A stretch of DNA of 64,000 bases. Source: Pseudomonadota bacterium. GTDB lineage: Bacteria; Pseudomonadota; Gammaproteobacteria; Nitrosococcales; Methylophagaceae. Below, in pieces: positions 665-63,109 of the stretch (position 1 is its first letter; each line of letters begins with the position of its first letter). Below the pieces are notes generated by a model, which saw nothing but the letters and a program-made list of their open reading frames with translations, made no database searches and was not told where the DNA came from. The position numbers were made by a program, and so were the translations under genes. Location: the NCBI GenBank assembly GCA_030576275.1, contig JALIBN010000005.1:1-64000 (forward strand). Direction: 5' to 3'.

Positions 665-1650
665 CAACCCCAACGTAAATTAGCGGTATGTACCGGAGCA
701 TCCCATAAGGCAATCAATTGTTCGTCCAATAATGTCAGGGTAACTGAGCAACCCGCCATATCTAACGATGTGGTGTAATTACCCACTAATGATCGCACAA
801 CGTCCACGCCTTTGTCTTTCAATAACGTCTCTGCTAGCTCAAACACCAAGTACAATTCCATAAGCGGTGTAGCACCAAAGCCATTGACGTGTAGTAATAC
901 TTTTTGACCTTGCTTTGGTTGTAAATCGACATCAATTGCTGCCACTAAATGTTCGACAATCTCGCTGGCATTGGACAGTTCCATCGGTTCACGACCACGC
1001 TCACCATGTATACCGACCCCCATTTCCATTTCATTGTGGCCAATATCAAATGTAGGCTTGCCAAGTGCAGGAACAGTGCAACTTGTTAAAGCTACCCCCA
1101 TCGTGGCAGTTGCATTATTAACGCGATCACCCAAAACTTTGCATTCAGCTAGGCTTGCACCCGCCTCTGCGGCTGCCCCCACTATTTTTTCAACAATAAC
1201 TGTACCAGCAACGCCGCGACGACCTGTACTGTGATCTTTAGGCAAAGAAACATCGTCGCTTACCAAAATGGTGTCATAAGGACAATCTAGCATCTCACCA
1301 GCAATTTCAAAGTTCATTACATCGCCAGCATAGTTTTTGACGATAAATAATACACCGGCTCCATTTTCGACGGATTCAGCCGCGGCAATCATTTGATCAG
1401 GCGTCGGCGAGGTGAATACATGTCCAGGGCATGCGGCATCTAACATTCCCACGCCCACTAAACCAGTGTGTAGCGGTTCATGGCCAGATCCTCCACCCGA
1501 TATCAATGCAACTTTAGGCTTGGGACTAGAATCCTTTCTACGAATAAAGTGCGGTTGATGGTTGAATTGAATAATGTCCTGATGAGCTTTAGCAAAACCG
1601 TTTAGGCTTTCTTCTAATAAACTTTCAACGCTATTTAGTATTTTTTTCAT
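661..1650 (-). CDS. dhaK: Dihydroxyacetone kinase, substrate-binding subunit DhaK
   Basis: DhaK binds dihydroxyacetone as a covalent hemiaminal on a histidine. The 329-residue product shows the substrate-site pieces: GGGSGHEP at residues 52-59, a KNYAGD segment ending at Asp110, and GVGIHGERG with the expected covalent His215. The length fits single-domain DhaK rather than the fused ATP-dependent kinase. It lies 15 bases downstream of a HAD phosphatase on the same strand, suggesting co-transcription. Its stop overlaps the stop of dhaL on the other strand, so the two subunits must be expressed from different promoters, unlike the usual dhaKL operon. Confidence 0.94.
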   Translation of the reverse strand: MKKILNSVESLLEESLNGFAKAHQDIIQFNHQPHFIRRKDSSPKPKVALISGGGSGHEPLHTGLVGVGMLDAACPGHVFTSPTPDQMIAAAESVENGAGVLFIVKNYAGDVMNFEIAGEMLDCPYDTILVSDDVSLPKDHSTGRRGVAGTVIVEKIVGAAAEAGASLAECKVLGDRVNNATATMGVALTSCTVPALGKPTFDIGHNEMEMGVGIHGERGREPMELSNASEIVEHLVAAIDVDLQPKQGQKVLLHVNGFGATPLMELYLVFELAETLLKDKGVDVVRSLVGNYTTSLDMAGCSVTLTLLDEQLIALWDAPVHTANLRWGC

Positions 1651-1665
1651 TTAGCACCCACCACT

Positions 1666-2517
1666 TTAATTTGTTTGATTTCGCAATAATTGCGTAATCT
1701 CCTGAATATCAGCCATTATCCACGTTGGTTCATAGTCCAACTCAGCAATATCCTGCTCTCTAGAAACACCCGTTAACACCATAATACTTCGCATTCCAGC
1801 ATTAACCGCGCCCAAAATATCAGTATTTAAGCGATCACCGATCGCGATTGTATTGGCTTGAGTTGTACCTAATAGAGCTAAAGCTTGTTGATATAAAATC
1901 GGAGCAGGTTTACCAATACTCGTTGCTTTGACCCCCGTCACGGCTTCCAAGGCAGCTAACACGCCACCATTACCCATGACTTCACCTAATTCCGTAGGCA
2001 AGGTGGTATCAGAGTTAGTCGCGAAAAATTGCGCACCGGCATTAATATTCAGAGTAGCGGTTGCTAACTTATCCCACGTTAATTTGCGATCTAGACCAGA
2101 AACAACAAGATCAGCTCCTTGGTCAAAAATACCTTTGTCAGGTTGATTAACTTGATAGAGATCGGTTAGTGTAAAGCCATGTTCGATTAGTGGTTGGCGT
2201 AAACCATCCTCGCCGATAACAAACACGCGACGCATGTCTGTTGGCAGATGTTGAATAAGGTACTGAGCAGTAGCCATGCTAGAATTGAGGATCTCACGAT
2301 GATCAATCTCAACCCCCATTTCTGCTAACTTGTCGACATATTGTTGCTGTGTAAGACTCGCATTATTGGTCGCTAATACAAAAGGAATGGCACAGCGTCT
2401 AAGTTCAGAAAAGAACTCAATTAGCCCTGGCATTGGTTTATTTCCATGCCAAAGTACGCCATCCATATCGATAATTAATCCAGCTAAATCATCAATTTTA
2501 GTCATGAACACATCCAT
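1666..2517 (-). CDS. HAD-superfamily (class IIA, NagD-like) sugar/triose phosphatase
   Basis: Cytoplasmic HAD hydrolase of subclass IIA (NagD / 4-nitrophenylphosphatase type). Visible motifs are DMDGVLW with the nucleophile Asp17 and acid Asp19, ATNNAS (motif II), IGKPAP with the lysine, and IGDRLNTDI (motif IV). The length of 283 residues is normal. An ATG at 2505 has a GGA-containing ribosome site about seven bases upstream and is the more likely start; the ATG at 2517 has none. Substrate is unknown. The gene sits directly upstream of dhaK, so a triose or glycerol phosphate is a reasonable guess, with kinase and phosphatase acting in opposite directions. Confidence 0.85.
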   Translation of the reverse strand: MDVFMTKIDDLAGLIIDMDGVLWHGNKPMPGLIEFFSELRRCAIPFVLATNNASLTQQQYVDKLAEMGVEIDHREILNSSMATAQYLIQHLPTDMRRVFVIGEDGLRQPLIEHGFTLTDLYQVNQPDKGIFDQGADLVVSGLDRKLTWDKLATATLNINAGAQFFATNSDTTLPTELGEVMGNGGVLAALEAVTGVKATSIGKPAPILYQQALALLGTTQANTIAIGDRLNTDILGAVNAGMRSIMVLTGVSREQDIAELDYEPTWIMADIQEITQLLRNQTN

Positions 2518-2566
2518 TATTTAAGTAATAAAATATGCGCAATCACCACGCAATTAGCCACAGCTT

Positions 2567-2585
2567 GGCATAATTCAATTATGCC
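2567..2585. repeat. Perfect 8-bp inverted repeat upstream of hps1
   Basis: GGCATAAT, a 3-base loop, then ATTATGCC. It lies in the divergent region between the HAD phosphatase and hps1, about 50 bases upstream of the hps1 -35 box. No T-run follows, so it is more likely an operator or part of the divergent promoter than a terminator. Function is inferred. Confidence 0.5.
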
Positions 2586-2631
2586 TGTCCAGCTATGGCG
2601 TGATAGTTGACAATGATTTTGACTATTTGAA

Positions 2632-2664
2632 AATTGACATTGATTAGCATTGTGCTATATAGTC
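2632..2664 (+). promoter_or_regulatory. Predicted sigma70 promoter of hps1
   Basis: A consensus TTGACA lies at 2634-2639, with TATAGT at 2658-2663 (18-base spacer) or the overlapping TATATA at 2656-2661 (16-base spacer). Transcription would start near 2670, leaving a leader of about 57 bases. The 13 bases AATTGACATTGAT and the TATAGTC also occur in the hps2 promoter. Upstream, TTGAC recurs at 2607 and near 2620, giving three roughly 13-15 bp spaced TTGAC repeats. Confidence 0.7.
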
Positions 2665-2726
2665 TTCCGGCGTAATTTTTAGCGTAAAACAATTAATATT
2701 TAACCCTATAACAGGAGCATGTCAAC

Positions 2727-3368
2727 ATGGCAAAAGCACTTATCCAAATGGCTCTAGATTCTCTAGATTTCGATGCAACAATCGCACTTGCTGAGCAAGT
2801 AGCCCCTTATGTTGATATCTTGGAAATTGGCACACCTTGCATCAAGTACAACGGTCTTGAACTTGTTACTGCATTGAAAGCAAAATTCCCAAACAAATTA
2901 CTTCTAGTTGATCTTAAAACTATGGATGCTGGCGAGTATGAATCAACACCATTCTATGAAGCTGGTGCTGATATCTGTACTGTTTTGGGCGTTTCTGACA
3001 AAGCAACTATGGGCGGCGTAATTAAAGCTGCAAATGCAAACAATGCTGAAGCACAAATCGATTTAATCAGTGTTAAAGATAAAGCAGCTGTAGCAACAGC
3101 AGCAGCAGCAAACGGCGCTCAAATCATCGGTGTTCACACTGGTCTTGACGCTCAAGCAGCAGGTCAAACACCTTTTGCTGATTTATCTTTAGTAGCTAGC
3201 TTAAACTTAGGTGTTCGCATCTCTGTTGCTGGTGGTATCAACAAAGATACTATCCAAAAAACTATCCAAGCTGGCGCAACTATCGTTGTTGTCGGTGCTG
3301 CAATCTACGGTGCTGAATCTCCAGCAGCATCAGCAAAAGAATTGCGTGCATTAGTTGACGCAGCATAA
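2727..3368 (+). CDS. hps1: 3-hexulose-6-phosphate synthase (copy 1)
   Basis: Key RuMP-cycle enzyme: condenses formaldehyde with ribulose 5-phosphate to hexulose 6-phosphate. The 213-residue product has the orotidine-decarboxylase-like fold signature VDLKTMDAGEYE with Asp62, Lys64 and Asp67, and phosphate-binding VAGGINKDT and VVVGAAIYGA segments near the C-terminus. AGGAG at 2713-2717 supports the ATG. It is a single gene with its own promoter and terminator, while the second copy (5265-5900) is paired with the isomerase. The two proteins are very similar throughout. Codon use is strongly biased, as expected for an abundant enzyme. Confidence 0.96.
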   Translation: MAKALIQMALDSLDFDATIALAEQVAPYVDILEIGTPCIKYNGLELVTALKAKFPNKLLLVDLKTMDAGEYESTPFYEAGADICTVLGVSDKATMGGVIKAANANNAEAQIDLISVKDKAAVATAAAANGAQIIGVHTGLDAQAAGQTPFADLSLVASLNLGVRISVAGGINKDTIQKTIQAGATIVVVGAAIYGAESPAASAKELRALVDAA

Positions 3369-3426
3369 GCTAGAAGCATAAGCTAGGTTAGATACGTTCT
3401 AAGCTAGAATAGAAAAAAAGCAAAGA

Positions 3427-3460
3427 ACGGGTGGCCATATTAATGGGTCACTCGTTTTTT
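3427..3460 (+). terminator. Rho-independent terminator of hps1
   Basis: The arms run from 3427 to 3438 and from 3442 to 3454. They pair as ACGGGTGGCCAT with ATGGGTCACTCGT, allowing wobble pairs and small bulges. A run of six T follows. It closes the hps1 transcript before the repeat-protein gene. The rest of 3369-3633 holds no other gene that I can support. Confidence 0.8.
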
Positions 3461-3633
3461 ACTATTTAATTCGACATCCAAGTATAAGTGTAGGCAAAAA
3501 CATATAAGCAATAATAAAAACGCTTTCTGTTTAACTCTTCTGGGTTGCCACAGTTAACCTAATAATAGTAATTAATTCATCGTACTTTAAATTTAAGGGC
3601 GATAGAATTCCAATTTAACAGGGGTATATTTCA

Positions 3634-3930
3634 ATGAGTGAAAAAAGTTTATTTGCTTCAATTTCCAGTTTTTTCAGCGGCTTGTTCTCTTCAGACAATG
3701 CAAGCTCTACATCGACAGTATCTTCAAGCAAAGATAGCGATGGCCTTACCGGCGTAGAACGCTATATCAGAAATCAAGCAAGCAAAAGCAATCAACTTAC
3801 TGGTGTTGAAGCATACATCCGTAACCTAGCGTCTGCACAAAAAACGACAGGTGTTGAAGCTTATATTCGTAACCTAGCTAACGCACAAAAAGTGACAGGT
3901 GTTGAAGCCTATATTCGTAACCAAGGTTAA
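3634..3930 (+). CDS. Small protein with four TGVExYIRN repeats, unknown family
   Basis: I do not recognise this 98-residue protein. An AGGGG ribosome site at 3620-3624 and codon use like the neighbouring hps genes indicate it is translated. Residues 1-18 have regularly spaced Phe, Ile and Leu, suggesting an amphipathic helix; residues 19-36 are Ser/Thr-rich and probably disordered. Four copies of TGVE(R/A)YIRN start at residues 39, 56, 72 and 88 (periods 17, 16, 16), joined by short polar Ala/Ser/Gln/Lys linkers. There are no cysteines, no transmembrane helix and no enzyme motif. It lies between hps1 and transaldolase with a hairpin on each side. A scaffold or multivalent binding protein for RuMP enzymes, perhaps membrane-associated, is a hypothesis only. 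Confidence 0.85.
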   Translation: MSEKSLFASISSFFSGLFSSDNASSTSTVSSSKDSDGLTGVERYIRNQASKSNQLTGVEAYIRNLASAQKTTGVEAYIRNLANAQKVTGVEAYIRNQG

Positions 3931-4038
3931 ACCCTTAGCTACAGACACTTAAAATTTAATACTTCAAGATAGTCGCTTCAGGCAATAGAAACCGCCCGAA
4001 TTTACGCGAAAGCTTAAAGTAATTAAAATTAACATAGT

Positions 4039-4082
4039 CCAGTATCTCGCTTAAATTTAGTTTGGCGAGATACTGGGGTTTT
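4039..4082 (+). terminator. Strong hairpin between repeat-protein gene and tal
   Basis: A perfect 12-bp stem pairs CCAGTATCTCGC (4039-4050) with GCGAGATACTGG (4065-4076) around a 14-base loop and is followed by GGTTTT. It looks like the terminator of the repeat-protein gene. It ends only about 35 bases before the tal start codon, so it could instead attenuate read-through into tal or stabilise an mRNA end. Confidence 0.7.
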
Positions 4083-4113
4083 AAACATTGAAAATTAAAG
4101 GTACCAAACAAAT

Positions 4114-5097
4114 ATGGCAAATTTACTTGAGCAACTAAAAGAAATGACCGTTGTTGTTGCTGATACTGGCGATATTGCAGCAATCGAAAAATTCACACCT
4201 CGTGATGCAACAACCAATCCTTCACTTATTACTGCTGCAGCTCAAATGCCGCAATATCAAGCAATTGTTGATGACACTTTGAAAGGTGCTCGCGAAACAG
4301 TGGGTGCAGATGCTTCTTCTACCGATGTTGTTTCATTAGCATTCGACCGTTTAGCAGTATCTTTCGGTTTGAAAATTCTTGATATCGTGCCACATCGTGT
4401 ATCAACTGAAGTTGATGCTAGATTGTCATACGATACCGATGCAACTATCGCTAAAGGTCGTGACCTAATAGCTCAATATGAAGCTGCTGGTGTATCTCGT
4501 AACCGCGTATTAATCAAAATTGCAGCAACTTGGGAAGGTATTCAAGCAGCAGCAGTTCTTGAAAAAGAAGGTATTCACACTAACCTGACTTTAGTATTTG
4601 GTTTACATCAAGCTATTGCTTGTGCTGAAAATGGCATCACATTGATTTCACCTTTCGTTGGTCGAATCCTTGATTGGTACAAAAAAGATACTGGTACAGA
4701 TTCATATCCTGCAGCAGAAGATCCAGGTGTTGTATCTGTTACAGCAATTTATAACTATTTCAAAAAATTCGGTTACAACACTGAAGTGATGGGCGCGAGC
4801 TTCCGTAACTTAGGTGAAATCACCGAGTTAGCTGGTGTTGATTTATTAACGATCTCACCTAGCTTGCTTGATGAATTGCAATCAACTGAAGGTGAGTTGC
4901 CACGTAAATTATCAGTAGAACAAGCTTTAGTTTCAGATATCGCTAAAATTGATATGAATAAAGCAACATTTGATGCAATGCACACTGAAGATCGCATGGC
5001 GAGTGAAAAATTGTCAGAAGGTATTGATGGTTTTGCAAAAGCATTAGAAGCACTTGAAGAAATACTAGCTAGTCGTTTGGCTGAACTTGAAGCTTAA
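4114..5097 (+). CDS. tal: Transaldolase (TalB-type)
   Basis: Transfers a dihydroxyacetone unit from fructose 6-phosphate to erythrose 4-phosphate in the rearrangement part of the RuMP cycle. At 327 residues it matches the TalB class. Visible active-site pieces are Asp17 in ADTGD, Asn35 in DATTNPSL, Glu99 in STEVD, and the Schiff-base Lys135 in [16 protein letters not shown] at 4097-4101 serves the ATG. It lies between the repeat-protein gene and the hps2-hpi operon. No clear promoter is visible in the short gap after the preceding hairpin, so it may rely partly on read-through. Confidence 0.95.
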
Positions 5098-5125
5098 ATA
5101 GCTTACGTTCAACCAAACCTTCTCA

Positions 5126-5153
5126 GCTCAATTATGGTCATAAATGATTGAGC
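5126..5153 (+). repeat. Weak hairpin after tal
   Basis: GCTCAAT at 5126-5132 is complementary to ATTGAGC at 5147-5153, with a 14-base loop. No T-run follows. It may mark the 3' end of the tal message, but a factor-independent terminator is not well supported. Confidence 0.4.
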
Positions 5154-5162
5154 CGATATCTA

Positions 5163-5200
5163 TCAGAAATGACGTCAATTGACATTGATGTCATTTCTGA
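5163..5200. promoter_or_regulatory. 38-bp palindrome over the hps2 promoter
   Basis: TCAGAAATGAC (5163-5173) is the exact reverse complement of GTCATTTCTGA (5190-5200). Inside, TCAAT and ATTGA also pair after one mismatch, leaving a 4-base centre. The palindrome covers the -35 box and reaches the edge of the -10 box, which suits an operator for a dimeric regulator. It has no T-run, so it is not a standard terminator. The regulator is unknown. Confidence 0.65.
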
Positions 5201-5208
5201 ATATAGTC
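5177..5208 (+). promoter_or_regulatory. Predicted sigma70 promoter of hps2-hpi
   Basis: TTGACA at 5179-5184 and TATAGT at 5202-5207 are separated by the ideal 17 bases. The 13-base AATTGACATTGAT is identical to that in the hps1 promoter, and both -10 boxes read TATAGTC. The predicted start near 5214 gives a leader of about 50 bases. Confidence 0.75.
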
Positions 5209-5264
5209 CCGATTCGCATAATAAACATGTGATGAATCAATCTAATACTTTAGGAGTATGTAAC

Positions 5265-5900
5265 ATGGCAGAAATTCAAATGGCTCTAGATTCTCTAGAC
5301 TTCGACGCAACTATGGCTTTAGCAGAAGCAGTAGCTCCATATGTTGATATCTTAGAAATCGGCACACCTTGTATCAAATACAATGGTCTTAAGCTTGTTA
5401 AAGCATTAAAAGCTGCGCACCCAACTAAAAAAATCTTAGTTGACCTTAAAACTATGGATGCTGGTGAATATGAATCAACACCTTTCTTTGAAGCTGGTGG
5501 TGATATCTGTACTGTTCTAGGTGCAGCTGATGCAGCTACAGTTAACGGTGTTATCAAAGCAGCTAAAGCAAACGGTGCTGAAGCTCAAGTTGATTTAATC
5601 AGTGTTGAAGATAAAGCTGCTGTTGCTAAAGAAGCAGCTGCTAACGGCGCTCAAATCATCGGTGTTCACACTGGTCTTGACGCTCAAGCTGCAGGTCAAA
5701 CACCTTTTGCTGATTTAGCATTAATTGCTGGCCTTGGCTTAGATGTTAAAATCTCTGTTGCTGGTGGTATTAACAAAACAACTATCCAAGATACAGTACG
5801 TGCTGGTGCAAATATTGTTGTTGTTGGTGCGGCTATCTACGGCGCAGCTTCTCCAGCAGAATCAGCTAAAGAACTACGTGCTTTAGTTGACGCAGCATAA
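5265..5900 (+). CDS. hps2: 3-hexulose-6-phosphate synthase (copy 2)
   Basis: Second formaldehyde-fixing HPS, 211 residues, with the active-site stretch VDLKTMDAGEYE (Asp60, Lys62, Asp65) and the phosphate-binding C-terminal motifs. The reading frame is open upstream to 5148, but that stretch contains the promoter and palindrome. The ATG at 5265 has AGGAG at 5252-5256 and matches the N-terminus of copy 1, so I start it there. The isomerase gene follows after 11 bases, so fixation and isomerisation are encoded together. A 75-base stretch (5643-5717) differs from hps1 (3111-3185) at one base only. Confidence 0.96.
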   Translation: MAEIQMALDSLDFDATMALAEAVAPYVDILEIGTPCIKYNGLKLVKALKAAHPTKKILVDLKTMDAGEYESTPFFEAGGDICTVLGAADAATVNGVIKAAKANGAEAQVDLISVEDKAAVAKEAAANGAQIIGVHTGLDAQAAGQTPFADLALIAGLGLDVKISVAGGINKTTIQDTVRAGANIVVVGAAIYGAASPAESAKELRALVDAA

Positions 5901-5911
5901 GGAAAAATAAT

Positions 5912-6445
5912 ATGCATCGTGATCTACTCTTAAATAAAATCACTGATATCCTTGGTTCTACTAATGATTCATACGAAGCTAAATTAGTTTCAATGTGTGA
6001 TGATGCCAAACGCATCTTTATTACAGGTGCAGGTCGCTCAAAACTAGTTGGTAACTTCCTAGGTATGAGATTGATGCATAGTGGTTATACCGTTTATGTA
6101 CAAGGTGAAATTAGTACACCTAGCATCCGTGAAGGCGATTTGTTAATCGTTATCTCTGGTTCTGGTGAAACAACTCAACTTGTATCATTTACGAATAAAG
6201 CCAAATCTGAAGGCGCTAAAGTGGTTTTGATTTGCTCAAAATCTAGCTCAACGATTGGTGATTTAGCTGACCAAACGATTCAAATTGGTAACGATGATAG
6301 TTTTGCCGCTACAAAGGGCATGCCTATGGGTACTATGTTTGAATTATCTACATTAATTTTCTTGGAAGCCATTGTTTCTCATCTTATACATGAGAAAGGA
6401 ATTCCAGAAGAAGAAATGAGATTCAGACACGCTAATATGGAATAA
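5912..6445 (+). CDS. hpi: 6-phospho-3-hexuloisomerase
   Basis: Converts hexulose 6-phosphate to fructose 6-phosphate, the second RuMP step. The 177-residue product is a single SIS domain: TGAGRSKLVG at residues 38-47 and ISGSGETTQL at 81-90 are the phosphosugar-binding loops, and the C-terminal RFRHANME resembles the conserved tail of this family. It follows hps2 by 11 bases with a GGA-containing ribosome site in the gap, so the two are one operon ended by the terminator at 6473. Assignment rests on the family motifs and this pairing. Confidence 0.94.
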   Translation: MHRDLLLNKITDILGSTNDSYEAKLVSMCDDAKRIFITGAGRSKLVGNFLGMRLMHSGYTVYVQGEISTPSIREGDLLIVISGSGETTQLVSFTNKAKSEGAKVVLICSKSSSTIGDLADQTIQIGNDDSFAATKGMPMGTMFELSTLIFLEAIVSHLIHEKGIPEEEMRFRHANME

Positions 6446-6472
6446 TCACTTTCCAAAAAGTAAAAAAGAAAG

Positions 6473-6503
6473 ACGAGCAGCCGTAAGGTTGCTCGTTTTT
6501 TTT
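6473..6503 (+). terminator. Rho-independent terminator of hps2-hpi
   Basis: ACGAGCAGCC and GGTTGCTCGT form a 10-bp stem with one wobble pair around a GTAA tetraloop. Eight T follow. It is one of the clearest terminators in the window. Confidence 0.9.
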
Positions 6504-6796
6504 GCCTAAAATTGTTAGTGCATACCTGTTTCTTGTGGAAATTCGGTATTATGAAGACGTTTATTCAAAGAAGCTTTATCATTGAAATATCACTTTATTA
6601 GTGAATCGACAACGTACAACTCCAACATGATCTAGGTTTGTAAGCTTTTCGCACTATTCGAGATAAAGCTTTATCTGAAAATATTTCAAACATCAGTGAA
6701 CTCACCGCTTGCCTAGTCAACATTCAATACTAATCTAGAGCTATTGAAAGCTTAGCTGTATAATGAAACCTTTCACATTAGCTATAAAATATTGCC
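6504..6796. promoter_or_regulatory. leuC upstream region with 16-bp palindrome and -10 box
   Basis: This gene-free stretch contains the perfect palindrome AGATAAAGCTTTATCT at 6661-6676. The half AAGCTTTATC also occurs at 6571-6580. A 13-base imperfect dyad, TGAAAATATTTCA, follows directly (6676-6688). A TATAAT at 6759-6764 is a plausible leuC -10 box, but no good -35 lies at the right distance. I see no leader peptide or branched-chain attenuator. Confidence 0.45.
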
Positions 6797-8203
6797 ATGA
6801 CTACAGCCAAAACACTTTACGACAAACTTTGGGAACAACACACTGTCCGCACTGATGAAGATGGAATAACCGCATTGTTATACATCGACCGCCATCTAGT
6901 GCATGAAGTAACGTCACCACAAGCGTTTGAAGGTTTACGTCTGGCGAATCGCAAGCCACACCGTATCAGCTCTATCTTGGCAACACCGGATCACAATGTG
7001 CCGACGAGTCACCGTGAACAAGGCATCATCGATCCTATTTCTCGCTTACAAGTAGAAACTTTAGATAAAAACTGTAAAGAGTTTGGCGTAACGGAATTTG
7101 ATCTAGCGGATGTCCGTCAAGGTATTGTGCATGTAGTCGGTCCAGAACAAGGGGCAACACTTCCTGGGATGACCGTGGTATGTGGTGATTCACATACCTC
7201 TACTCACGGCGCTTTTGGCGCCTTAGCCTTCGGTATTGGTACTTCTGAAGTTGAACATGTTTTAGCAACCCAATGTTTAATTCAGAAAAAAGCCAAATGT
7301 CTGTTAGTTAGAGTTGATGGTCAAGTTAACGCCGGTGTAACTGCAAAAGATATTGTTTTAGCCATTATCGGAAAATTAGGTACCGCAGGTGGAACAGGCT
7401 ACACCATTGAATTTGCTGGTGAAGCGATTCAAGCGCTTAGCATGGAAGGCCGTATGACCGTGTGTAATATGACGATTGAAGCGGGTGCACGCGCAGGACT
7501 TATTGGCGTTGATGATACGACAATCAATTATTTGAAAGGCCGCCCTTTTGCACCTTCTGATGAAAATTGGCAAAATGCAGTCGATGCATGGCAGGATTTG
7601 CACAGTGATGCAGGTGCCATTTTTGATAAAACGATTATTTTTAACGCCGCTGATATCAAACCACAAGTTACATGGGGAACCTCCCCTGAAATGGTTGTTG
7701 CCATTGATGGCAATGTACCTGATCCATCTCAAGAAGCGGATTTAGTAAAACGCAATGGCATGGAAAGAGCTTTAGTTTATATGGGACTTAAAGCCAATCA
7801 AGCTATCACTGATATTATGCTAGACCGTGTATTTATTGGTTCTTGTACCAACGCGCGTATTGAAGACTTACGCCAAGCGGCGGCTGTAATTAACGGCGGT
7901 AAGGTTGCCAGTACCGTAAAACAGGCAATGGTTGTACCCGGCTCTGGATTAGTTAAGCTACAAGCCGAACTAGAAGGTTTGGATAAACTATTTATTGCTG
8001 CAGGCTTTGAATGGCGGGATCCAGGCTGTTCAATGTGTTTAGCCATGAATGCTGATCGTTTAGAGTCAGGTGAACATTGTGCATCGACATCAAACCGTAA
8101 TTTTGAAGGTCGACAAGGTTTAGGTGGACGTACGCACTTAGTTAGCCCATCAATGGCAGCTGCTGCAGCAATAGCCGGTCACTTTGTCGATGTAACACTC
8201 TAA
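6797..8203 (+). CDS. leuC: 3-isopropylmalate dehydratase large subunit
   Basis: Aconitase-family [4Fe-4S] enzyme that isomerises 2- to 3-isopropylmalate in leucine synthesis together with LeuD. The 468-residue length is standard. Cluster ligands are visible as the Cys in [14 protein letters not shown] and the CSMC pair near residue 413, with the [12 protein letters not shown] substrate loop near residue 131. The usual partners leuD and leuB do not follow. Instead prmB starts on the very next base after the stop codon, which implies translational coupling. leuD must be elsewhere or outside the window. Confidence 0.96.
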
Positions 8204-61098: not shown

Positions 61099-61129
61099 CT
61101 ATAAAAGTCTTTTTAAAATACTTTTATAG
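61099..61129 (-). repeat. 10-bp inverted repeat at the tkt stop codon
   Basis: CTATAAAAGT (61099-61108) and ACTTTTATAG (61120-61129) are exact reverse complements. The repeat includes the tkt stop codon. It may be a 3'-end stabiliser ahead of the GC-rich terminator; no protein role is implied. Confidence 0.6.
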
Positions 61130-63109
61130 TGTTTCTTTTACCGTTTTAACTACGTTTTCAACGGTGAAACCGAAGTGTTTCATCAAAACGCCACCTGGTG
61201 CAGATTCACCAAACGTATCGATACCAACAACGCCACCTTCTAGACCAACATATTTGCGCCAGAAGTCAGTTACACCCGCTTCAATCGCAACACGTTTAAC
61301 GCCTGGAGTCAGAATACTATCTTTATATGCTTGATCTTGACGATCAAACACGTTCGTTGAAGGCATAGATACAACACGTGCATTGATGCCATCGGCAGCC
61401 AACGCAACTTGAGCTTGTGCAGCTAAATCTACTTCAGAACCGGTAGCAATCAAGATCACATCAGCAGAACCTTTTGCTTCAGAGAGGATGTATGCACCTT
61501 TGCGCATAGCTGCAAAATCAGCAACATCATGCTTACGACCAGGAATACCTTGACGGCTCAATACTAAGCTAGAAGGACCATCGGCACGTTCAACAGCCGC
61601 CGTCCATGCAACAGCAACCTCAACTGAATCAGCAGGACGCCATACATCCATATTAGGGATATAACGCATTGCAGCAGTATTTTCGATTGGTTGATGAGTA
61701 GGACCATCTTCACCTTGACCAATAGAATCATGTGTTAATACCGCAATAGTACGGATTTTCATCAATGCAGCCATACGTAATGCAGATTTAGCATAATCAG
61801 AGAACATGTGGAATGTGCCACCGAATGGGATCAAACCACCGTGAAGAGCCATACCGTTCATTATTGCATACATACCAAACTCACGTACACCGTAAGAGAT
61901 GTAGTTACCAGGCTCTTTACCTGATACGTGTTTGAAGCTTGCACAGCTAGTTAAGTTAGAACCTGTTAAGTCAGCAGAACCACCTAAAAATTCAGGCAAT
62001 AAAGGTGCCAAAGCAGCAATTGTTTTTTGTGATGCTTGACGAGACGCTAGGCTAGCTGCGGCTTCGTTAGTTTCAGCAATGATTGCATCAGTAGCTTCAG
62101 TCCAGTTTGCTGGTAAGTCTTTCGCCATGCGACGTGTGAATTCTGCAGCTAATTCTGGGTATTCTGCAGCATAAGCATCAAATTTAGCATTCCAAGCAGC
62201 TTCTTTGACTGCACCGGCAGCTTTAGCATCCCAACCTTCGTATACATCAGCAGGAATTTCGAAAGGAGCGTAGTTCCAATCTAATTCTTTACGTGTTAAT
62301 GCAACTTCTTCTTCACCCAAAGCAGCACCATGACAGTCGTGGCTACCAGATTTATTTGGTGAACCAAAACCGATGATTGTTTTACAGCAAATCATAGACG
62401 GCTTGTCTGTAATTGCTTTGGCGGCAGTAACAGCAGCAGAGATTGCGGCTGCATCGTGTCCATCTACTGATTGTACGTGCCAACCATAAGCTTCAAAACG
62501 CTTAACAGTGTCATCTGTGTACCAACCGTCAATGTGACCATCGATAGAGATGTTGTTGTCATCCCAGAATGCAACCAATTTACCAAGGCCCCAAGTACCT
62601 GCTAATGCGCAAGCTTCATGAGATACACCTTCCATCAAACAACCATCACCCAAGAATACATAAGTGTTGTGGTCAACGATCTCATGGCCAGGCTTGTTGA
62701 ATTGATCAGCCATTAATTTTTCAGCCATCGCAAAACCAACACCGTTAGTGATACCTTGACCTAAAGGACCCGTTGTTGTTTCTATGCCTGGTGCATAACC
62801 GTATTCAGGGTGACCCGCACATTGCGAGTGAAGCTGACGGAAAGAAGCAAGTGATGACATTGGCAAGTCATAACCTGACAAATGCAACAATGAATAAATC
62901 AACATTGAACCGTGACCATTCGACAAAATAAAACGATCGCGGTCAGACCATTCTGGATTAGTCGGGTTGTGTTTTAAGTGATCATTCCACAATACTTCAG
63001 CGATATCCGCCATACCCATAGGCGCGCCTGGATGACCCGATTGAGCCTTTTGTACTGCATCCATGCTTAAAGCACGGATGGCGTTTGCTAAATGTCTACG
63101 TGTAGCCAT
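61124..63109 (-). CDS. tkt: Transketolase
   Basis: Thiamine-diphosphate enzyme moving two-carbon units between sugar phosphates; with transaldolase it regenerates ribulose 5-phosphate for the RuMP cycle. The 661-residue product has [32 protein letters not shown], the TPP motif starting [15 protein letters not shown] and ending DDNN, and the transketolase [18 protein letters not shown]. Ribosome site AGGAG precedes the ATG. It follows the AhpC-like gene by 26 bases. Confidence 0.97.

Follow-up and report, generated by a model that had tools for sequence, protein, structure and literature searches.

A family of proteins in which a short helical motif recurs at even spacing is encoded beside the genes of the RuMP cycle in two groups of methylotrophs, and it probably gathers one or more RuMP enzymes at the membrane. 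Our preferred reading is more specific: the family would be a membrane-tethered, multivalent scaffold of formaldehyde fixation, with 3-hexulose-6-phosphate synthase (Hps) as its likeliest client. We put this forward tentatively from sequence comparison, as quite possible and just short of probable. It is suggested by conserved, docking-like helices on a variable chain, the lack of a recognised catalytic domain, an anchor that differs in kind among the relatives, and linkage to a single pathway.

The member that prompted this study, here termed REP, is encoded in a 64,000-nucleotide stretch of a Methylophagaceae genome (the window). The features of its neighborhood, all on the + strand, are as follows.

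2727..3368, +, hps1, 3-hexulose-6-phosphate synthase, the likeliest candidate client (TIGR03128, 242.6 bits, cut-off 200)
3415..3465, +, terminator-like hairpin and T run after hps1 (MFE -20.8, z -6.8, 0/200 shuffles as stable)
3634..3930, +, REP, the repeat protein gene, complete including stop, 98 aa
3643..3684, +, REP N-terminal helix, residues 4-17 (helix in the AlphaFold2 model; consensus MSxKGFFASICxFFKGLFSS)
3694..3741, +, REP Ser/Thr-rich linker, residues 21-36 (low pLDDT, least conserved part)
3748..3774, +, REP repeat 1, TGVERYIRN (predicted helix 40-51)
3799..3825, +, REP repeat 2, TGVEAYIRN (predicted helix 57-67)
3847..3873, +, REP repeat 3, TGVEAYIRN (predicted helix 73-83)
3895..3921, +, REP repeat 4, TGVEAYIRN, C-terminal (predicted helix 89-97)
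4030..4085, +, terminator-like hairpin and T run after REP, before tal (MFE -23.6, z -6.4, 0/200 shuffles as stable)
4114..5097, +, tal, transaldolase (TIGR00874, 469.8 bits, cut-off 396.2)
5265..5900, +, hps2, second Hps (TIGR03128 over its cut-off at 5274-5885)
5912..6445, +, hpi, 6-phospho-3-hexuloisomerase (TIGR03127, 195.3 bits, cut-off 160)

The open frame of hps2 (5148-5900) begins at an upstream TTG; judged against hps1, its likely start is the ATG at 5265. The transketolase gene of the window lies at 61127-63109 (-), 57 kb from the RuMP cluster, and its product is 65% identical over 670 aa to the copy in a distant genome, G309, which is discussed below. A strong hairpin with a T run stands on each side of REP, and the gene may therefore form its own transcription unit. 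A terminator consensus scan found 4 sites against 3.3 expected and missed both hairpins, though direct folding supports them. Since a promoter scan returned a count at expectation (13 against 12.7), no promoter is claimed for REP.

REP starts with an ATG, and AGGGG at 3620-3624 is a possible ribosome-binding site. Its four TGVE(R/A)YIRN units start at residues 39, 56, 72 and 88, giving periods of 17, 16 and 16. The sequence-only reading, made from the letters and open frames of the window, had described a 98-residue protein with four such units at a 16-17 residue period, a Ser/Thr linker and no enzyme motif, set between hps1 and transaldolase, and each of these points was borne out. The linker occupies residues 21-36, NCBIfam identifies both neighbors above cut-off, and searches of REP against Pfam and NCBIfam returned no model at cut-off. 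The sub-threshold matches that these searches did return were discarded as a guide to identity. No domain, catalytic or other, exceeded its Pfam or NCBIfam cut-off in REP or in two sets of 10 relatives. A profile of the repeat gave three matches among PDB sequences (best E 0.83), none of them a linker protein. Thirty stretches in viral contigs fit the motif pattern, none being a REP relative, and one anchored protein from the order of G309 had no tblastn match among plasmids.

Chance does not readily produce this arrangement. In 20,000 shuffles of the REP residues, a single TGV..Y[IL] arose three times and two copies never did, and REP alone carries that motif among the 945 open frames of at least 30 aa in the window. 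Across the 2.37 Mb of the same genome, a DNA pattern for TGV..Y[I/L/M] occurs six times, four of them in REP, compared with 0 matches for a reversed control pattern. The other two lie in a CheA-type kinase (contig C34), considered below, and at the C-terminus of a cyclopropane-fatty-acid-synthase-like frame (contig C12) whose best NCBIfam match falls under its cut-off. Units 3 and 4 agree at 26/27 nt. Unit 1 matches the others at only 17-18/27 nt, so the array is more than a fresh DNA duplication. Between REP and its relative at locus L021, differences number 20, 16 and 37 at the first, second and third codon positions, the third varying most.

An AlphaFold2 model built on 21 sequences predicts helices at residues 4-17, 40-51, 57-67, 73-83 and 89-97 with coil between them, at modest confidence (mean pLDDT 63.7, pTM 0.22); pLDDT drops below 50 in the linker area, at residues 19-23, 25-27 and 29-32. 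Over the same 21 sequences the mean fraction of the majority residue is 0.85 in the motifs, 0.81 in the N-terminal helix (residues 3-20), 0.55 in the spacers and 0.40 in the linker. Conserved motifs on a drifting linker and spacers form the pattern of docking motifs on a flexible chain. Unit statistics were taken from 134 units in 38 proteins (those of the Methylophagaceae loci and two open frames of locus L050), excluding units near protein ends. The core reads T-(G/S)-V-E-x-Y-I-(R/Q)-N, with V and Y in 134/134 units, T in 130, G or S in 132 and E in 121. Successive units in these 38 proteins are 16 or 17 residues apart in 107/134 gaps, the full range being 13-20.

The helix predicted for the motif has a high hydrophobic moment (0.55), and helix geometry would place its V, Y and I on one side. 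Such a face could also let the repeats bind each other or a membrane surface, making the protein a self-assembling coat, a condensate or an envelope-shaping factor whose expression with the RuMP operon is coincidental, all the more as membrane-anchored chains of disordered repeats are able to associate with one another. We think this unlikely: the near-constancy of V, Y, T, G/S and E suggests specific docking rather than generic stickiness, and self-assembly would leave the tight RuMP linkage described below unaccounted for.

As scaffolds go, the closest parallels to the preferred reading are EPYC1 of pyrenoids and CsoS2 of alpha-carboxysomes, Rubisco linkers that carry evenly repeated short helical motifs on a flexible chain and bind multivalently. 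The REP family resembles them in its evenly spaced copies of a helical motif (the helices being predicted at modest confidence), its multivalency and its tie to a pathway. It differs in that its chain carries a membrane anchor and its cluster shows no Rubisco or shell gene. At the Pfam and NCBIfam cut-offs, and with the repeat profile against PDB sequences, no match to a linker family appeared.

Within the Methylophagaceae, the gene and its place are widespread. Used as a protein query, REP matches 51/95 relatives, 51/57 in its own family and 0/38 outside, some of these matches being only weak ones to a long open frame of the ChpA-type kinase. A scan of genome contigs found REP at 20 loci labelled Methylophaga, Piscirickettsiaceae or Gammaproteobacteria, M. 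sulfidovorans and M. aminisulfidivorans among them. The order hps1-REP-tal holds in 37 of 39 Methylophagaceae loci, a set in which many genomes are counted twice; the remaining two begin inside the cluster. Seven further loci of the family retain the REP slot, six with longer versions of up to 8 repeats. Only four Methylophagaceae genomes have an Hps match without REP (G005, G026, G045 and G056), and in each the contig breaks at the Hps gene, where REP would be expected. Seven genomes of the family lack any Hps, and all seven lack REP. This joint absence is weak support, since six of the seven are <90% complete, and genes at one locus go missing together from an incomplete genome. The sole clean case is G029 (family f1), a 1.1-Mb genome listed as 100% complete that has no Hps, no repeat and no match to a motif-bearing ChpA; it is a reduced genome that may have left the RuMP lifestyle.

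The repeat genes and Tal of loci L050 (G028:C210, a 3-kb contig) and L147 (G443:C1) resemble those of other methanotroph-type genomes, and both loci are probably contaminating MAG contigs. They were kept in the tallies, L050 in the Methylophagaceae counts and L147/G443 in those of the G309 order, and neither is used as evidence.

Position within the Methylophagaceae proves little by itself: across the loci of the family, gene order is conserved over a wider block that runs from DhaL to an ABC transporter gene. REP could accordingly be a passenger held near the RuMP genes by block inheritance, with a function unrelated to C1 metabolism, and the DhaL-DhaK-NagD flank common to several loci of the G309 order fits that idea as well. 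In the G309 order, however, the repeat gene tracks the RuMP genes through rearrangement, through tandem duplication and into separate hps-tkt loci (L127, L129, L135), which makes a mere passenger decidedly unlikely.

The co-occurrence extends beyond the family. In a draw of 369 genomes from the class, the repeat and an above-cut-off Hps fall in the same 6 genomes; a seventh Hps match, in G312, is below the cut-off, and that genome has no repeat. Outside the Methylophagaceae, only two genomes of this draw carry the repeat, G197 and G309, in both cases inside a RuMP cluster. In G309 a bracket of hps, hpi, tkt and a 473-aa repeat gene, following DhaL-DhaK-NagD, occurs twice, and hps-hpi-tkt then recurs with a 237-aa repeat gene, tal and fba; tkt and fba exceed their NCBIfam cut-offs. 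The repeat gene has thus been amplified together with the genes of RuMP enzymes. In this region (L093/L094, G309:C1 ~3513200-3530600) there are three tandem copies of hps-hpi-tkt, two of them with the 473-aa repeat gene, and the two 473-aa proteins are identical to each other. We take the order of G309 to be the type I methanotroph order, because its RuMP layout recalls the published duplication in Methylococcus, where, in the portions available of PMC517821 and PMC8527097, tal, hpi, hps, fba and tkt make up the duplicated cluster.

Among the 131 genomes of this order, 88 carry the repeat, 103 carry Hps and 87 carry both. The one repeat-positive genome without Hps, G543, has pieces of hpi, tkt, tal and fba on broken contigs. 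The repeat is thus found mainly in genomes with the RuMP cycle, not in RuMP-free ones (the same 6/369 as Hps in the class draw, 87/88 in this order). Linkage was counted at 105 places among the matches listed, from 74 of the 88 repeat-positive genomes, and 95 of them adjoin RuMP genes. The sequence-only reading had proposed a search for proteins with several TGVExYIRN repeats near hps, hpi or tal in other methylotrophs; this count answers it favorably and gives the protein a firmer setting than that reading could draw on. An Hps gene lies within 6 kb at 77 of the 105 places. The other 28 comprise 18 beside hps, hpi, tkt, tal or fba, mostly at contig ends (some with only a 32-58 aa tkt fragment, one being the suspected contaminant L147), 3 at contig ends that could not be judged (L171, L175, L181), and 7 away from RuMP genes (three in G454 and one each in G436, G483, G495 and G430). 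Twenty loci were picked from the listed matches for their diversity, and in these the repeat gene and its RuMP neighbors are co-oriented.

Identity between repeat proteins of the Methylophagaceae and those of the G309 order falls to 36-40% over 52-70 aa; despite this divergence, the genes of both lineages still sit next to hps, tkt or tal. The DhaL-DhaK-NagD flank is common to the Methylophagaceae and several loci of the G309 order. The linkage therefore has a single origin, by descent or by one transfer, and was then kept through rearrangement; that it did not arise independently in the two lineages counts against the scaffold reading. The hps-tkt-repeat loci L127, L129 and L135, each a second, separate locus, do without that flank.

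The proteins themselves vary in build around a common layout. Distinct open frames with at least two motif copies were chosen for this comparison, and copies number 2-8 in the Methylophagaceae loci and 2-20 in the G309 order, multivalency thus persisting while the number of copies varies. One build, found in the Methylophagaceae, has an N-terminal hydrophobic helix and 2-8 repeats. A second, read by eye, has a signal peptide, a periplasmic YPAxDFxPKVxYxD module usually present twice, one transmembrane segment followed by Lys/Arg, and about four repeats. A third, encoded in open frames of 269-545 aa, pairs a short hydrophobic element at the N-terminus with 11-20 repeats. An intermediate (L138) shows a transmembrane segment and then five repeats, and a minimal form (L161, in G454) consists of three repeats and little else, just before hps-hpi. 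DGL(T/S)GV precedes the first repeat in the first build and in several proteins of the third, and the final repeat closes the protein in 36/36 short proteins of Methylophagaceae loci (L050 included) and in 55/61 open frames of the G309 order. This shared lead-in and terminal repeat point to one family rather than a motif that arose twice.

The sequence-only reading had proposed a probable N-terminal amphipathic helix and a possible membrane location for REP. The helix is supported by the AlphaFold2 model (residues 4-17). Its amphipathic character is only moderate (mean hydrophobicity 0.33, moment 0.30), and we propose that it serves as an in-plane membrane anchor. Membrane location draws support from the relatives, which by eye resemble proteins with a signal peptide and a transmembrane segment, and is weakened by the only moderately hydrophobic helix of REP itself. 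Of 61 distinct open frames of the G309 order, only 27 showed a hydrophobic segment N-terminal to the first motif under an automatic hydropathy rule, whose threshold misses some anchors judged by eye (for example L168, L178 and L186). A transmembrane segment followed by Lys/Arg, again judged by eye, would place the repeats in the cytoplasm. The YPAxDFxPKVxYxD module of the anchored relatives (L132:8992-9762, L133:9737-10504 and others) is presumed periplasmic, usually occurs twice, and could possibly dock a periplasmic partner; L132 has no Pfam match and no NCBIfam match at cut-off.

These elements suggest how the scaffold would work. Methanol dehydrogenase makes formaldehyde in the periplasm, and Hps works as an oligomer. 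An N-terminal element (the in-plane helix in REP, a signal peptide and transmembrane segment in many relatives of the G309 order) would hold the protein at the cytoplasmic membrane, and the flexible chain would display several copies of the T(G/S)VxxY(I/L) helix on the cytoplasmic side. All the helices would recognise a single site on a RuMP enzyme, Hps being the most probable one. Because Hps is oligomeric, a chain with several helices could cross-link it, and perhaps other enzymes of the cluster, into a patch at the membrane. Formaldehyde from the periplasm might then be captured on entry, limiting toxicity and raising flux. Ferenci et al. reportedly found in 1974 that Methylococcus Hps is partly membrane-bound, an observation given no weight here. 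That the helices bind an enzyme, that this enzyme is Hps, that it is cross-linked and that formaldehyde handling benefits is what we infer from this arrangement.

Hps appears the likeliest client because it is the most constant neighbor, Tkt and tal each being missing from some loci; most of the 28 places without Hps within 6 kb are cut by contig ends. Transketolase was rejected as sole client, as 27 Methylophagaceae loci have no Tkt and the window copy lies far from the cluster. Transaldolase as sole client is a possibility, yet the sequence examined around the hps-tkt-repeat loci L127, L129 and L135 contains no tal. In an alignment of Hps, seven columns separate repeat-positive from repeat-negative lineages; they were set aside as a clue to a docking site, since they can be phylogenetic and most are shared with unlinked Hps-Hpi fusions.

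The association with Hps has exceptions. The repeat was not detectable in 16 of the 103 Hps-positive genomes of the G309 order, nor in any of the 80 genomes of family f207 (E 0.01), though one of these, G896, has two Hps. A rule that the repeat occurs wherever Hps does thus fails. Eleven repeat-free Hps loci were inspected, ten from nine of the 16 genomes and one from G443. Eight have no close tal or tkt match beside hps; in three (L154, L156 and L157) hps has such a match and still no repeat, L154 being a 3.2-kb contig and L157 having its hps at a contig end.

Conversely, motif proteins away from RuMP loci occur in Hps-positive genomes. Their neighbors include SulP and an MCP (L163), LysR (L162), an RTX-repeat protein and a TonB receptor (L164), threonine dehydratase (L159) and gyrB (L165). 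Two such proteins from different families, L162:5776-6552 and L185:6424-7269, share by eye a Cys-rich C-terminal stretch, CQAxTxKGxQC...FKPY. Matches of two off-RuMP relatives to PF25195, 'Diatom pyrenoid component 2', were rejected at 17.9 and 16.7 bits against a cut-off of 70.

The motif also occurs in signalling proteins. ChpA-type hybrid CheA kinases of the Methylophagaceae carry 4-8 T(G/S)VxRY(I/L) repeats in their linkers, in the complete or partial open frames listed, and a hand count found repeat matches in open frames of at least 700 aa in 37 of 57 Methylophagaceae genomes. Of four motif kinases searched with Pfam, three have Hpt, HATPase, CheW and receiver domains, and the fourth, truncated by a contig end, has only Hpt. 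The ChpA-type kinase of the window's own genome (L060, C34:45000-57000; open frames 1430-5650 and 5515-7419, -) contains six or more copies, interrupted in the assembly by a run of N, and its N-terminal linker holds one TGVQRYI and five TSVQRYI, the latter 28 residues apart. These are signalling kinases of 1.8-2.1 kaa that share the motif with REP and neither its fold nor its anchor.

Because such kinases carry the motif, the helices may dock on something outside the RuMP cycle, and this is the main rival to the scaffold reading. The repeat helix would then bind a non-RuMP partner, for example a hub at the cell pole or of the chemosensory system, or another general localisation factor. Membership of the cluster would secure no more than expression during C1 growth, and the cargo that the protein positions would not be Hps. 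The kinase linkers and the scattered neighbors of the off-RuMP proteins both fit this view. Against it, the G309 order has no ChpA-sized open frame among the matches listed, yet shows the 95/105 linkage to RuMP genes. On balance we regard a non-RuMP partner as somewhat unlikely, though a serious contender. The sequence-only reading's idea of a protein that binds a RuMP enzyme in several copies to form a formaldehyde-fixing assembly stands in part: co-occurrence with Hps and RuMP linkage favor it, and the repeat-free family f207, the ChpA motif and the 7/105 off-RuMP places count against it.

A more ambitious form of the scaffold reading is a native transmembrane formaldehyde-fixing metabolon. 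In the anchored relatives the periplasmic module would sit on the periplasmic formaldehyde source and the cytoplasmic repeats on Hps, with formaldehyde handed over across the membrane between them. ChpA steers type IV pili, and in the Methylophagaceae its repeats would couple the chemosensory system to the assembly. We consider this extension quite improbable.

Other ways of bringing RuMP enzymes together offer a comparison for the scaffold reading. Hps-Hpi fusions (NCBIfam NF041755, RuMP_HxlAB) couple the first two enzymes of the cycle covalently and without repeats, and Hps matches fall in open frames of ~390-490 aa in many of the repeat-bearing genomes; the repeat protein, by contrast, is not joined to an enzyme, and no catalytic domain is recognised in its chain. 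An engineered Mdh-Hps-Phi assembly held by an SH3 domain and its ligand (Price et al. 2016) is described in the available parts of PMC13001265 and PMC9214030. A REP scaffold would share its aim, which is to place the formaldehyde source together with Hps/Hpi and thereby raise methanol use, and would be the natural counterpart of that artificial construct. A search of open-licence literature by motif spelling and topic found no title or abstract opening that names such a protein or motif, and none is mentioned in the available excerpts of PMC5802761, PMC6548844 and PMC8879981.

Formaldehyde is toxic, and how methylotrophs prevent its leakage on the way from the periplasmic source to the cytoplasmic enzyme that fixes it is a practical question. 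According to the same parts of PMC13001265 and PMC9214030, engineers co-locate Mdh, Hps and Phi artificially with this problem in view. If the scaffold reading is true, anchored multi-motif proteins in the RuMP clusters of two methylotroph groups would be a natural solution to this leakage. The family offers a testable motif and, in L161 of G454, a minimal version, and it would supply synthetic methylotrophy with a ready-made part. Should the client prove to be something other than Hps, a motif common to RuMP clusters and a chemosensory kinase would still call for explanation.
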